Assembly: GCA_018822845.1 (NCBI GenBank)
Contig: JAHJJD010000009.1
Location: forward strand, 1-34,689
Length of the DNA stretch: 34,689 bases
Source: Gammaproteobacteria bacterium
Lineage (GTDB): Bacteria; Pseudomonadota; Gammaproteobacteria; Thiotrichales; Thiotrichaceae
Direction of reading: 5' to 3'
Under the pieces are notes generated by a model. The model did no database searches and was not told where the DNA came from. It saw only the letters and a program-made list of their open reading frames with translations. Position 1 is the stretch's first letter; each line of letters starts with the position of its first letter. The position numbers and the translations under genes were made by a program. Shown one piece after another: positions 30,371 to 34,291 of the stretch.

Positions 30371-30380
30371 AACATGAACT

Positions 30381-30418
30381 GCGGGTCTCATCATTCTTCA
30401 GAAAATGATGAGACCCGC
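30381..30418. terminator. Perfect 15-bp hairpin after aspS
   Basis: GCGGGTCTCATCATT (30381-30395) and AATGATGAGACCCGC (30404-30418) pair exactly around an 8-base loop, starting 11 bases after the aspS stop. This is the strongest hairpin in the window. The downstream sequence lacks a solid T run, so it may stop transcription or protect the mRNA end. Confidence 0.7.
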
Positions 30419-30452
30419 ACATTTGATTATGCTTGACTATAAGATTTTAGAT

Positions 30453-30467
30453 ATTTAACGTATTTAC
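30453..30467. repeat. Outer inverted repeat, left end of the DUF3987 island
   Basis: ATTTAACGTATTTAC here is the exact reverse complement of GTAAATACGTTAAAT at 31954-31968. The two copies bracket the single gene between aspS and rlmKL. The centre, ACGT, recurs in all boxes around the gene. Confidence 0.7.
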
Positions 30468-30503
30468 TTACTTTGGAATTTTATCTTTTAAAATCAAATA
30501 TTT

Positions 30504-30526
30504 ATTCCATTGAAATCCAGTGGAAT
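30504..30526 (-). terminator. Candidate terminator of the DUF3987 gene
   Basis: On the minus strand ATTCCA and TGGAAT (plus-strand arms 30504-30509 and 30521-30526) form a hairpin 25 bases after the gene stop, followed by AT-rich sequence with T runs. The stem is 6 bp with one mismatch extension. Confidence 0.4.
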
Positions 30527-30539
30527 AGAGAGATTTTTT

Positions 30540-30549
30540 ACGTACTTAG
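30540..30549. repeat. Inner inverted repeat, left side of the DUF3987 island
   Basis: ACGTACTTAG is the exact reverse complement of CTAAGTACGT at 31871-31880. It ends one base before the stop codon of the DUF3987 gene. The distance from outer to inner repeat is 97 bases on this side and 98 on the other. Confidence 0.6.
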
Positions 30550-30550
30550 C

Positions 30551-31846
30551 TCATTTTCTGGTTAACTCAAAAACAGTCGCAGATTTCCCCCTTTTCCCAT
30601 CTTTTCTTGGACGCACTATTCGCTTAATTTTTCCTTGCGCTTCCAGTGTCTTGAGTAGGGTATTCATAGTGGCTGATTTAATATTTTGCTGGAACACGCT
30701 TACCCTTATTTGGGTGGTAGTAAGCGCTCCATGCTTGCGTAAGGCAGTCAATAATTTATGGGCGTCTTCGTTTTCATCATTCTCAAAAATATACGCTATG
30801 CTACCAACACTATACCGCCAGATGTGGGATGCAGCCTCCAGGTGCTGCGGCATAACCCGATCAGTGCAATCAAGCAAAGCAAATATACCGGCCATCCGTA
30901 ATACTTGTACCCGCGCCCGTTCAGACATCGGCGATGATTCCTTTGCCAGCGATACAGCCATATTTGACCAAATATCCAGTGATGCAGGTGAAAGGGATAG
31001 CTCATTCGTATCGCTGGAAAACTGGATCGCTTTGGCAACCGCATCCGCATAATTCAGCATGCGACCAACAGGGATACTTTCCGGAACAGGAACAATTTTC
31101 GAGCGACGCACACATATCCATATGATTCGGCTTGCCAATGCGCTGGAATATTCACTTTGTTCAAGCCGTTTAACCAACTCTTCATAAGTGATATGCCCTA
31201 CAAAACAGACATGTGCATCTGTAACTGTTACCCGGTTATTTTTGGTCAAGGGTGAAAAACTACCCGAGTCCCAGAAACGCCTGATAGCAGCTGAAACTGT
31301 ATTACCCTCCCGCCTGGCTGCCTGCAAGACCGCAGCAAATTCTTCCTCAAGAATCATCAGACGCTTATCGGTAACGCCTTTGTCAATGGGGTTTCCATCT
31401 TCATCCTCTGTATCGGCAGGGTCACGCACTGCCCATGCCAACCCTTCCCCGCTAGACATTGGCCCATCCCGATACAGCGCCGGAGGAAGACCCAATTTGC
31501 GCAACTGGACATTCACATACTCCAGCATCAATTTTCTGACTGGCGCGGCGGCTGTGCCTTTACCACCACCTGAAGTACTGGTAGTAACACTGAACAAACG
31601 TGGCGGAGCTTCCACATCCCCCAGCCGCAATACGGCCTTGCTCCCGAAGTATGTGCCGACCCAGGTCAGCAAGTGTATTAACACCCCAATGGGATCTGCT
31701 TCTGACTGCATACAGGCATCACGGGCAAAACGCCCCGCAACTCCGTAGAAACAACCTTCATCTGGAATCGGAAATTCGGCAGGAACCTCTTCTACTTCAA
31801 GCGGGCCGCGTTTGTCAGCCTCACTCAAGTTTATGACGTTGCTCAC
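30551..31846 (-). CDS. DUF3987-type P-loop ATPase of mobile-element origin
   Basis: A 431-residue protein. A P-loop-like TSGGGKGT lies at 91-98 and a Walker-B-like LMILEEEF at 163-170. SSALASRIIWICVRRSK at 234-250 matches the conserved segment of DUF3987 proteins, found in prophages, plasmids and genomic islands and often fused to primase domains. Residues 355-431 look like a winged helix (HGALTTTQIRVSVFQQNIKSATMNTLLKTLEAQGKIKRI). No primase domain is fused here. The start is GTG at 31846 with GAGG upstream. Its GC content is visibly lower than that of aspS or rlmKL, and inverted and repeated ACGT boxes flank it on both sides. Replication or helicase-like activity is inferred from the family only. 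Confidence 0.8.
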   Translation of the reverse strand: MSNVINLSEADKRGPLEVEEVPAEFPIPDEGCFYGVAGRFARDACMQSEADPIGVLIHLLTWVGTYFGSKAVLRLGDVEAPPRLFSVTTSTSGGGKGTAAAPVRKLMLEYVNVQLRKLGLPPALYRDGPMSSGEGLAWAVRDPADTEDEDGNPIDKGVTDKRLMILEEEFAAVLQAARREGNTVSAAIRRFWDSGSFSPLTKNNRVTVTDAHVCFVGHITYEELVKRLEQSEYSSALASRIIWICVRRSKIVPVPESIPVGRMLNYADAVAKAIQFSSDTNELSLSPASLDIWSNMAVSLAKESSPMSERARVQVLRMAGIFALLDCTDRVMPQHLEAASHIWRYSVGSIAYIFENDENEDAHKLLTALRKHGALTTTQIRVSVFQQNIKSATMNTLLKTLEAQGKIKRIVRPRKDGKRGKSATVFELTRK

Positions 31847-31870
31847 TGGAGATACCTCTCATATTAATAT

Positions 31871-31968
31871 CTAAGTACGTTTAGAATTTACGTTTAAGCA
31901 AAATAATATCACTAAATAAATACATATAAAACAAAGTTTTAACTATTTACTACGTAAATACGTTAAAT
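31871..31968. repeat. Array of ACGT-centred boxes upstream of the DUF3987 gene
   Basis: Four boxes occur in this AT-rich leader: CTAAGTACGT (31871-31880), TTTACGTTTAA (31887-31897), TACGTA (31951-31956) and GTAAATACGTTAAAT (31954-31968). The last two form a tandem ACGTAAAT/ACGTTAAAT unit. The first and last are exact inverted copies of the boxes at 30540-30549 and 30453-30467. Possible readings are iterons, recombinase-binding sites or operators. Confidence 0.6.
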
Positions 31969-31983
31969 TTTTTATAAAAATTT

Positions 31984-32019
31984 AAAATATATCCAGACAA
32001 GTCTATCTGGATATATTTT
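31984..32019 (-). terminator. Terminator of rlmKL
   Basis: AAAATATATCCAGA (31984-31997) and TCTGGATATATTTT (32006-32019) pair perfectly over 14 bp around an 8-base loop. On the minus strand the hairpin follows the rlmKL stop by 11 bases and runs into T-rich sequence. It also closes the right side of the DUF3987 island. Confidence 0.75.
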
Positions 32020-32030
32020 GACCTAATTTA

Positions 32031-34184
32031 TTAAGCGAGTTGTTTGAAACGGATTAACCAACAGCCATGAATCTTTGGATCGCGCTGAAAATCTTCCGGT
32101 AACGATGGCATCCGGTAATCTTGCACTTCATAGGCCGCCTCAATCTGCGGGTCGAGTTTGAACTTGCGGAAGTTGTTGGAAAACACCAGGGTACCATCCA
32201 CATTCAGCGCCTTCATGCAGTTGCGGATCAGTTCCACATGGTCGCGCTGCACATCAAATACATCGTCCATACGTTTGGAATTACTGAAAGTTGGTGGGTC
32301 GAGAAAAATCAGGTCGTAACGGCTGTTGCATTTACGTAGCCATTCCACTGCGTTGGCCTGGATGAAACGGTATTTGTAGGGTTCAGAGCGTAAGTGGTTG
32401 AGCGCAAAGTTATCTTCCGCCCAATCCAGATAAGTAGCGGACATGTCCACACTATCCACCCGGCTTGCGCCACCCACTGCGGCATGAACGCTGACGGTGC
32501 CGGTGTAACAGAACAGATTCAGCACACTCTTGCCCTTGGCGTGTTGCTGCATCCAGTAGCGCATCGGACGATGGTCGAGGAACAGGCCAGTATCAAGGTA
32601 ATCCGTCAGGTTCACTTTCAGGCGCACGCCGTGTTCGGTGATGGTCAGCGCCTGTTCCGCCCTGCCCTGTTTTTCGTACTGGCTTTTGCCCTTCTGCTGT
32701 TTGCGCTGCTTCAGGACAATGTGGTCGGGGGCAACAGCCAGTGCTTCCGGCAGGGTCATCAGTGCCTGCTCCAGCCGTTGTTGCGCGGTTTTTTCGTCGA
32801 TGGTCTTGGGTGGGGCGTATTCCTGTACGTGCAGCCAGTCGGCGTAGCGGTCAACCGCGATCGCGTATTCGGGGATGTCGGCGTCGTAGACGCGGTAGGC
32901 GTTGCTGTCGCCGCGCTTGATGAAGGGTTTCAGCTTGCGCAGGTTCTTGTTGATGCGGTTGGCGAGGTCTTCGACAAACAGGTTGGCAGCGCGTGCTTTT
33001 TGTTCCAGCTTGTCGAAGGTGTAGACCTTGCATTCGGTTTCGCCGTTGAGCAGGCGGTATTCCTTGCTGTAGAACAGGTTGGTCAGGGCAACGGGCGCTT
33101 GGGCGTCGGTGAAGATGGCGGCGCGGAAACCTTGCGGCAGGCTGGCGAGGTGTTGGCCTAATGCGGCGTAAGAGGGCTGTAGGGCTACCTTGGTGATGGT
33201 TTCGTCAAAGGGAAGATGGGTGATGGCGAGGGCGGCAGTTTCGTTCGTTCCCCCCATCCCCAACCCTTCCCCCGCAAGGGGGGCAGGGAGTAAGAGGGAC
33301 TCCGGTAGATTGGCGGCTTGCCAGTCGGTACGGAGGTTCAGGAGGGCTGCGGGGTTGCCTGCGGCGCTGAAGGTGTAGCGGCTGGTGTTGCTGAGTCCGG
33401 TTTGCTGGCGTTGGCGGGCTTCGTCACGCAGGGTTTCCCACAGGGTTGCGTCGTGGCCGAGCCAGCGGTTGGCAATGGTTCTGCCGCGCAACAGGCCGGG
33501 GGCAATGTCGAGCGCCATCAGTGCGCCTTCGATCAGCAGCGCGCTGCTGGTGCATTGCGGGTCAAACAGGCTCAGGTGTTCGGTATCACTGCCCAGCATG
33601 GCGGGCCAGCCAGCACGGATCAGGATGGCAGCGGCGAGATTTTCGCGGATCGGCTGGTGCTCATCCGGGTCAAGGTAGCCGTGTACGTGCAGCCCCTGCT
33701 GGTTGAGTTCGAGGCCGACGCTGGCATTACCCTTGTGCAGGTTGACCAGGATCACCACATCCGGGTTGTCGCTGACGCTGGGGCGGATGCCTTCGCGCGC
33801 AAGGAAATGGTCGCCGATCTGATCCTTGACCCATTGCGCGCCGAACTGGGTGTTGTGGATGTCATCATTGCGGCCAAAGAAACGCACCTTCAGGGTTCCG
33901 TCGGGGCGGATGTGTTGGTGCCAGGGAATGCTGCTGAGCAGGTCTTTCAGCTCCGTCTGATCTTTGCCGAAACCTTGCGCCAGTTGCAGGGTGGCTCGGG
34001 AAGCGAGGCGGCTCCACAGCATCACGCTGTAGCCAAAACGCAGGTCGCCTGTCGCCCCTACTCCGGCGTGGCCGATTTTGACCTGTTCTGCGCCGAGGGT
34101 GGTGAGTTCATCCGCCAGTAACGGCTCGATGAACTGGGGGCAGGCGAAGAACCATTGGAGGGTTTGGGGGGTGTCTGATGGCAT
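32031..34184 (-). CDS. rlmL: 23S rRNA methyltransferase RlmKL with a degenerate RlmL domain
   Basis: A 717-residue two-enzyme fusion: THUMP region (about 10-165), RlmL-type methyltransferase (about 170-385, m2G2445) and RlmK-type methyltransferase (about 400-717, m7G2069). The RlmK half is intact, with NLFCYTG at 556-562, VDMS and DPPTFSNSKRM at 629-639. In the RlmL half the SAM motif DPMCGSGT reads DPQCTSSA (208-215), the GSDxD acidic loop reads SAAGN (273-277) and the catalytic NPPYGER reads LQPSYAA (about 335-341). A palindromic repeat adds residues of about 297-312. Methylation of G2445 by this protein is therefore unlikely; G2069 methylation should persist. I start at ATG 34184 rather than the TTG three codons upstream; no strong ribosome-binding site is seen. 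Confidence 0.9.
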   Translation of the reverse strand: MPSDTPQTLQWFFACPQFIEPLLADELTTLGAEQVKIGHAGVGATGDLRFGYSVMLWSRLASRATLQLAQGFGKDQTELKDLLSSIPWHQHIRPDGTLKVRFFGRNDDIHNTQFGAQWVKDQIGDHFLAREGIRPSVSDNPDVVILVNLHKGNASVGLELNQQGLHVHGYLDPDEHQPIRENLAAAILIRAGWPAMLGSDTEHLSLFDPQCTSSALLIEGALMALDIAPGLLRGRTIANRWLGHDATLWETLRDEARQRQQTGLSNTSRYTFSAAGNPAALLNLRTDWQAANLPESLLLPAPLAGEGLGMGGTNETAALAITHLPFDETITKVALQPSYAALGQHLASLPQGFRAAIFTDAQAPVALTNLFYSKEYRLLNGETECKVYTFDKLEQKARAANLFVEDLANRINKNLRKLKPFIKRGDSNAYRVYDADIPEYAIAVDRYADWLHVQEYAPPKTIDEKTAQQRLEQALMTLPEALAVAPDHIVLKQRKQQKGKSQYEKQGRAEQALTITEHGVRLKVNLTDYLDTGLFLDHRPMRYWMQQHAKGKSVLNLFCYTGTVSVHAAVGGASRVDSVDMSATYLDWAEDNFALNHLRSEPYKYRFIQANAVEWLRKCNSRYDLIFLDPPTFSNSKRMDDVFDVQRDHVELIRNCMKALNVDGTLVFSNNFRKFKLDPQIEAAYEVQDYRMPSLPEDFQRDPKIHGCWLIRFKQLA
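33250..33297 (+). repeat. Palindromic repeat copy D, inside rlmKL
   Basis: CCCCCCATCCCCAA, then arms CCCTTCCCCC (33264-33273) and GGGGGCAGGG (33278-33287 region) around a GCAAG loop, ending AGTAAGAGG. It is 45/48 identical to copy E by direct comparison. It is read on the minus strand as SLLLPAPLAGEGLGMGG within the decayed RlmL domain. Confidence 0.85.
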
Positions 34185-34238: not shown

Positions 34239-34240
34239 AG

Positions 34241-34288
34241 CCCCCCATCCCCAGCCCTTCCCCCGCAAGGGGGGAAGGGAGCAAGAGG
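34241..34288 (+). repeat. Palindromic repeat copy E, intergenic
   Basis: CCCCCCATCCCCAG, then a perfect 10-bp stem CCCTTCCCCC (34255-34264) and GGGGGAAGGG (34270-34279) with a GCAAG loop, ending AGCAAGAGG. It differs from copy D at three of 48 positions, while flanks differ completely, which fixes the unit boundaries. It lies between the TPR fragment and rlmKL. Confidence 0.85.
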
Positions 34289-34291
34289 TTG

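Follow-up and report, generated by a model that had tools for sequence, protein, structure and literature searches.

Mirror-image box sites around a DUF3987-type gene of Thiothrix: a probable remnant of a mobile-element replication module

Layout and conservation of the locus

The window, as the whole stretch analysed is called here, comprises 34,689 nucleotides from a member of the Thiotrichaceae (assembly GCA_018822845.1, contig JAHJJD010000009.1, positions 1 to 34,689 of the forward strand). Between aspS and rlmKL it holds a single gene for a DUF3987-type protein, enclosed by an outer and an inner box site on each side. The boxes are real, non-random and conserved among the 12 Thiothrix genomes that carry the gene (the carriers). 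The features in the window are as follows.

30380..30419: inverted repeat 3' of aspS, probably a terminator, outside the right outer box
30458..30473, (-) strand: right outer site, on the 3' side of the gene; ACGTATTT at 30458-30465 and degenerate ACTTACTT at 30466-30473 (plus-strand letters)
30474..30539: AT-rich spacer of the right half-module; unit-to-unit distance 82 bp in the window
30540..30549, (-) strand: right inner site, ACGTACTTAG on the plus strand, just beyond the stop codon in the window
30554..31846, (-) strand: gene for the DUF3987-type protein, 431 amino acids; stop codon 30551-30553
31871..31880, (-) strand: left inner site, ACGTACTTAG on the strand of the gene
31881..31947: AT-rich spacer of the left half-module; unit-to-unit distance 83 bp in the window
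31948..31963, (-) strand: left outer site, ACGTATTT at 31956-31963 and ACGTAGTA at 31948-31955 (strand of the gene)
31984..32019: inverted repeat 3' of rlmKL, probably a terminator, outside the left outer box

A preliminary description of this DNA had reported a 15-base sequence (30453-30467) recurring in exact inversion at 31954-31968 and, nested within, a 10-base sequence (30540-30549) recurring inverted at 31871-31880. Both are present, and the spans of 97 and 98 bases given for them follow from the box coordinates. An exact inverted match of at least 15 bases between the flanks arose in two of 2000 shuffled pairs. The excess of ACGT cores reported there was borne out as well: the two flanks together hold six (at 30458, 30540, 31877, 31890, 31952 and 31960), a number reached by none of 2000 shuffles (mean of 0.5 for base-composition and 1.5 for dinucleotide shuffles). 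The gene had been called AT-rich; this holds in the extreme for the flanks, with a guanine-plus-cytosine (GC) content of 24% on the right and 20% on the left, but the gene, with 49% GC compared with 53% for the window, is only mildly so. The aspS-to-rlmKL interval of the window contains neither an integrase nor a primase gene, as had been stated, but a tyrosine recombinase gene stands between aspS and the gene in five of the 12 carriers. No known RNA family was found in the window at the gathering threshold.

The box unit is best described as the 8-bp sequence ACGTAYTT, present as a tandem pair at each outer site (the second unit of the right one being degenerate in the window) and singly at each inner site, with the units of both sides facing inward. 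In all 12 carriers, flank scans and alignments find the gene bordered on either side by a double outer box and a single inner one. Outer sites typically read ACGTAYTT and then ACGTA followed by A/T-rich letters, and inner sites have one unit followed mostly by AG. The right inner unit shares one or two bases with the stop codon in 11 of the 12 carriers, that is, in all but the window. Exact ACGTANTTACGTAA occurs 15 times in the 16 Thiothrix genomes; 14 of these occurrences are at the locus, in nine of the 12 carriers, and none is in the four non-carriers. With one mismatch allowed, 17 occurrences are at the locus and 14 elsewhere, compared with 48 for a reversed control. A global regulator with many sites was rejected, the outer-box pattern being nearly restricted to the locus (the inner-box form was not searched genome-wide).

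The outer-to-inner spacing on the left is 82-83 bp in ten carriers and 72-73 bp in two; on the right it is 81-82 bp in seven and 70-72 bp in five (nine of the 12 right spacings come from units matching at least 7 of 8 bases and three from the alignment). The spacing classes are thus about one helical turn apart, and between the inner box and the start codon the distance ranges from 26 to 34. At 10.5 bp the 24 spacings give a vector strength of 0.906, or 0.901 when close relatives are collapsed, compared with 0.146 for the start-codon distance; periods of 10.75-11 fit equally well as 10.5 bp.

Seven of the 12 carriers have a TATAMT hexamer whose end is 3-4 bp upstream of the left inner unit, and transcription would therefore be expected to start within the box. 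This position, together with a helical phasing that suits looping, is consistent with plain autoregulation, in which the protein would be a winged-helix repressor of its own gene and four operators would hold a loop across the gene, any origin function having been lost. We take such a pure autorepressor loop to be the main rival of the replication-module reading set out below but judge it unlikely. It would leave unexplained why the downstream half matches the upstream one, in mirror image, in both make-up and spacing, with a double outer site past the end of the gene; two further points against it come from the relatives of the protein.

As regards long terminal inverted repeats extending past the boxes, the left and right inner spacers are weakly alike (mean z of 1.14; p <= 0.05 in four of 12 genomes). 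Base pairing between the two inner boxes at the level of the mRNA was rejected by reading the alignment, with no pair-counting tool run, because C/T changes opposite A break pairs and do not compensate. An orphan half-module with an AT-rich spacer was observed in genome G004 at L123 ~2046-2125 (G004:C7 ~109545-109624), with inner AAATACGT, outer TTACGTAAGTACGT and a spacing of 72. It lies ~33 kb from the element without an adjoining DUF3987 gene, and may be either a relic or a site acted on in trans.

Distribution, neighbourhood and descent

The gene is found in 12 of 16 Thiothrix genomes (the four named records are Thiothrix) and in none of 47 other genomes of the family. Distant matches amount to five others among 369 genomes sampled from the class and one more among 398 sampled from the phylum. 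The protein is single-copy in the window's own genome, and each of the 12 carriers has one copy.

The gene directly adjoins aspS in six carriers and is separated from it by one gene in the other six, encoding a tyrosine recombinase in G004, G006, G012, G013 and G014 and a tetratricopeptide-repeat (TPR) protein in G011. The TPR gene (L044:2873-3877) shows that insertion of genes is tolerated on the outer side of the right half-module. The recombinase gene (314 amino acids, L041:6840-7831, and at the same place in L042, L043, L045 and L048) has one lox-like inverted site (AACTTCYGATAA...TTATTCTCNGAAGTT) in front of it, both lying between the right outer box and aspS. The lox-like site occurs once per genome in these five carriers, and close relatives of the recombinase are present at other loci in three genomes. 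On the opposite side, rlmKL is the neighbour in 11 of the 12 carriers, across a gap of ~1.2 kb in G004 and G006, which in G006 holds a gene for a putative lipoprotein of 298 amino acids. Other genes stand where rlmKL would be expected in G007; we take these open reading frames (L047:1367-5085) to be dnaG and rpoD.

The sole aspS-rlmKL neighbourhood seen without the gene is that of G010, where aspS, a putative lipoprotein gene and rlmKL are present and only a hairpin remains between the first two; no empty site that could be aligned to look for a target-site duplication was found. In non-carrier G005 (L038 1850-3135), apparent transposon fragments and a long inverted repeat directly follow aspS, so that loss of the locus may there accompany insertion activity.

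The gene alignment did not reject the aspS topology (approximately unbiased test, p = 0.089, with a program warning of too few replicates), and the aspS alignment rejected the topology of the gene (p < 0.001). An aspS protein tree with other genera places G003 outside a core of 15 genomes and sets non-carriers beside carriers in the pairs G008 and G000 (support of 81), G005 and G006 (99), and G010 and G007 (90), with several weak deeper nodes (39-67). On the simplest history there was one gain followed by three losses. The ratio of nonsynonymous to synonymous substitution rates (dN/dS) is 0.010-0.042 in the six of eight pairs for which it could be computed, three of these values being rough because dS exceeds 2; the other two pairs are saturated in dS. 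For the six pairs the gene lies below rlmKL and within the range of aspS. The gene looks vertically inherited, and, being linked to aspS in all 12 carriers and probably lost three times, it is not an actively moving element. The preliminary description had named presence at the same place with vertical divergence in all relatives as evidence against its proposals. This is largely what was found, in 12 of the 16 genomes with three inferred losses rather than in all.

These data bear on a second explanation, a single-gene mobile element, either transposon-like or moved by a recombinase in trans, with the nested inverted boxes as its ends. Nested inverted boxes do recall transposon ends, a recombinase gene and lox-like site adjoin the gene in five carriers, G010 has aspS, the putative lipoprotein gene and rlmKL without the unit, and there is the orphan half-module 33 kb away in G004. 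However, the gene is single-copy and at most one gene from aspS in 12 of 12 carriers, with a tree compatible with that of aspS, and the unit consists of one helicase-type gene without a transposase. In seven of 12 carriers this place lacks the recombinase, which has close relatives at other loci in three genomes, and its lox-like site is found once in each of the five genomes. Of the marks of a transposable element with terminal inverted repeats, neither an encoded transposase or recombinase nor multiple positions or copies were found. A mobile single-gene element was rejected on its fixed position, compatible tree and single copy, and we consider it the least probable of the explanations weighed here. 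The same evidence, together with the lack of a transposase, leaves without support the minimal mobilisable element and the satellite using a helper's recombinase, both of which had been proposed in the preliminary description.

The predicted protein and its mobile relatives

With the whole protein as query, Pfam assigned Replic_Relax to residues 366-430 above cutoff and MarR weakly, below cutoff. For DUF3987 (PF13148) the window protein scores 25.7 bits against a cutoff of 27, and the relative at locus L081 scores 49.7 bits. When the 16 genomes were searched for DUF3987, the orthologues of G001, G007 and G015 came over the cutoff once neighbouring in-frame matches were counted, and the window's own gene was not retrieved. 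A sequence search for solved structures gave none up to an E value of 1. An AlphaFold2 model with a mean predicted local distance difference test (pLDDT) score of 86.7, along with fold matches in the PDB, predicts an MCM-type (minichromosome maintenance) AAA+ helicase ATPase (~residues 34-357) followed by a C-terminal winged helix (~360-430), residues 360-428 of the model forming helices and strands. (A model built with 12 orthologues reached a pLDDT of 37.6 and was not used.) The ATPase and the predicted winged helix are both features of the MCM-like initiator helicases of mobile elements; the accompanying integrase and primase are lacking in the window, and a recombinase adjoins in five of the 12 carriers only. 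Residues invariant among helicase-type relatives are retained in the Thiothrix protein, which argues against a protein reduced to autoregulation.

Viral contigs yielded no close relatives with the single protein or A1 as query; with a wider alignment as query, 29 viral loci were found to encode relatives. The best of these is L081 (45% identity), whose element has a Toprim gene immediately upstream and also encodes an integrase and an HTH_17 protein. From the stop codon of this relative onward, units resembling AAAAGAGTA form an array, grouped into clusters ~80-90 bp apart. Repeat arrays were tested in 26 relatives (24 viral and two from genomes, L073 and L078 included; L092, L105, L106, L107 and L109, which are near-duplicates or ends, and L074-L077 were excluded). 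Exact repeated 8-mers were significant (p <= 0.05) downstream of the gene in 14 of 26 relatives and upstream in one of 23. With one mismatch allowed, at least five units were found downstream in 11 of 26, upstream in two of 22, within the gene in three of 26 and further downstream in none of 25. This preference for the downstream side, with arrays hardly ever upstream, also counts against autoregulation as the sole role.

Seven of the 11 arrays are mirror-symmetric (p < 0.05; L083, L085, L087, L093, L096, L102 and L104) and four are not (L078, L081, L082 and L090). The symmetric ones stand directly 3' of the gene, and their unit sequence differs from one to the next. As a class, the mirror-symmetric arrays 3' of viral DUF3987 genes are candidate replication origins. 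The Thiothrix locus shares the downstream position, with the right inner site at the stop codon and the right outer site 70-82 bp further in all 12 carriers; these ~three units, some of them degenerate, are not significant as an array alone. A test for inverted similarity across the gene (60 shuffles each) was run on 23 viral loci, one of which proved too short (L101 and L102 were not entered). It was significant at p <= 0.05 in nine of 12 Thiothrix loci against none of 22 viral ones, so that a gene inside a mirror arrangement appears particular to the genus in the set examined.

Other, larger DUF3987 proteins are encoded in 13 of the 16 genus genomes. Two of four such loci read (L119 and L121) have tandem 9-bp repeats (CTGTCGCAA or near) ~270 bp downstream. 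The occurrence of these proteins, and purifying selection combined with repeated loss, would be in keeping with a role in defence or copy control, whereby an immobilised initiator would bind incoming elements that share its iterons and block or titrate their replication. The repeats at the four loci are, however, different or few, and the extended box is found in six viral contigs with a single match each, about the chance level by estimate. No PADLOC match was obtained, on which ground a known defence protein was rejected, and we hold the defence or copy-control explanation to be very improbable.

Several known systems resemble the locus in part. In passages of one study (PMC7581432), the Rep protein of Staphylococcus aureus pathogenicity islands (SaPIs) is an initiator helicase that recognises, through its C-terminal domain, iterons lying directly downstream of its gene; of the helicases of the staphylococcal cassette chromosome SCCmec, Cch is MCM-like and classed as DUF927, and Cch2, classed as Primase_Cterm, has a C-terminal domain that binds repeats immediately downstream of its own gene. 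Excerpts of another describe the origins of Escherichia coli phage-inducible chromosomal islands (PICIs) as an AT-rich region between two iteron sets (PMC6092414). The SaPI and Gram-negative PICI initiators (Rep and Pri-Rep), as portrayed in these excerpts, share with the Thiothrix protein, there by prediction, an initiator helicase with downstream iterons. They differ in that the Thiothrix sites lie on both sides of a gene that has a fixed place and vertical descent and, in the window, no adjoining primase or integrase gene. The SCCmec proteins are alike in the MCM-like helicase (Cch) and the downstream repeats (Cch2), but are not DUF3987 proteins and belong to a recombinase-bearing cassette, and the passages concerned describe no mirrored upstream half. 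DUF3987 itself is predicted as a helicase in mobile-element replication in part of PMC5862659 and figures in the search model for phage-inducible chromosomal minimalist islands (PICMIs) in part of PMC10803314. The DUF3987 primase-helicases of integrative elements, prophages and PICMI satellites are sequence homologues of the Thiothrix protein; unlike it, several carry or adjoin primase or integrase parts, and their arrays, where present, are 3' of the gene. In par2 of plasmid pB171, parC1 and parC2 flank parAB, an arrangement alike in that clusters of binding sites flank the genes of the binder, but the proteins are ParA and ParB rather than an MCM-type ATPase. Parts of par2 are listed among plasmid constructs in a portion of PMC4270457. 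The literature searched contained no paper combining DUF3987 and iteron.

Interpretation as a replication module

The explanation we favour, with moderate confidence, is that the locus is a fixed, vertically inherited remnant of a mobile-element replication module, in which an MCM-type initiator helicase gene lies between two mirror-image half-origins. Its computed part consists of the conserved boxes and spacing, vertical inheritance and purifying selection at the locus, the MCM-type helicase fold predicted for the protein, and the iteron arrays beside part of the mobile relatives. The repeats of the locus resemble the likely replication start sites of those relatives. A domesticated initiator helicase enclosed by half-origins is our reading of an arrangement absent from the relatives tested. 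Among the options of the preliminary description, the nearest is the integrated iteron-based replicon, with which the MCM-type predicted fold and the arrays agree. Conservation of the boxes around homologues, which it had asked for, is seen in the 12 carriers but does not extend to two-sided inverted boxes in the 22 distant relatives.

On this replication-module reading, the C-terminal winged helix would bind the ACGTAYTT units, as their conservation suggests. Each half, made up of a double iteron, an AT-rich spacer of ~55-67 bp and a single iteron, would assemble one complex in helical register, and, the halves being inverted, the two complexes would face in opposite directions and could open the AT-rich spacers. 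The left inner box lies over the likely transcription start, and its occupation by the protein would repress the gene, so that an origin-type nucleoprotein complex would also repress its own promoter. DNA opening or replication would follow from this presumed binding, and the outcome might be either DNA synthesis with a host primase or a silenced looped complex only. We infer binding, autorepression and origin activity of the locus.

Several observations weigh against the replication-module reading. The spacings form two classes among related genomes, and therefore represent few independent length changes. Some boxes are degenerate (the right inner unit of G004, which was placed by alignment, and the right outer sites of G006 and G011), and where hits overlap, in G007 and G011, the unit used was picked by alignment. 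The likely -10 hexamer is absent in five of the 12 carriers, the window among them. The array of the nearest relative, L081, lacks mirror symmetry (p = 0.606), and 15 of the 26 relatives have no array of at least five units. Since none of the 22 viral relatives has two-sided similarity, the label of upstream half-origin rests on likeness to the downstream side; within Thiothrix, the loci of G002, G006 and G007 were not significant in the same test. In the exact-8-mer test the Thiothrix flanks were significant in none of 12 genomes (p of 0.115-0.995), being unremarkable there because they have few units in very AT-rich DNA. The aspS-rlmKL interval is also without a primase gene, a point that speaks for plain autoregulation.

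A bolder form of the replication-module reading, which we regard as doubtful, is that the host has adopted the MCM-type initiator with its gene inside its own origin. The inverted half-origins would then still load oppositely facing helicases at a single chromosomal place near aspS, which would provide a second site, derived from the element, where DNA opens or replication starts, or else local control of copy number.

DUF3987 is still named as a family of unknown function; the downstream, often mirror-symmetric arrays beside part of its mobile members and the MCM-type predicted fold together open it to direct testing as an initiator helicase that would bind its own origin. With one gene and four sites, the Thiothrix locus would make a very small example of such a system, and one that its host has long kept. 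It would bear on the domestication of mobile-element initiators as chromosomal origins or local copy controllers, and would provide a simple model, in bacteria, for an MCM-like helicase with paired inverted sites.

Elsewhere in the window, a C-rich, partly palindromic sequence (CCCCCATCCCC...CCTTCCCCCGCAAGGGGGG) was noticed by eye at 33250-33300 and 34240-34290, inside the rlmKL frame and in intergenic DNA; it resembles a dispersed repeat that invaded a coding region. The contig end (34632-34689) resembles what is presumably the start of an insertion-sequence transposase gene.
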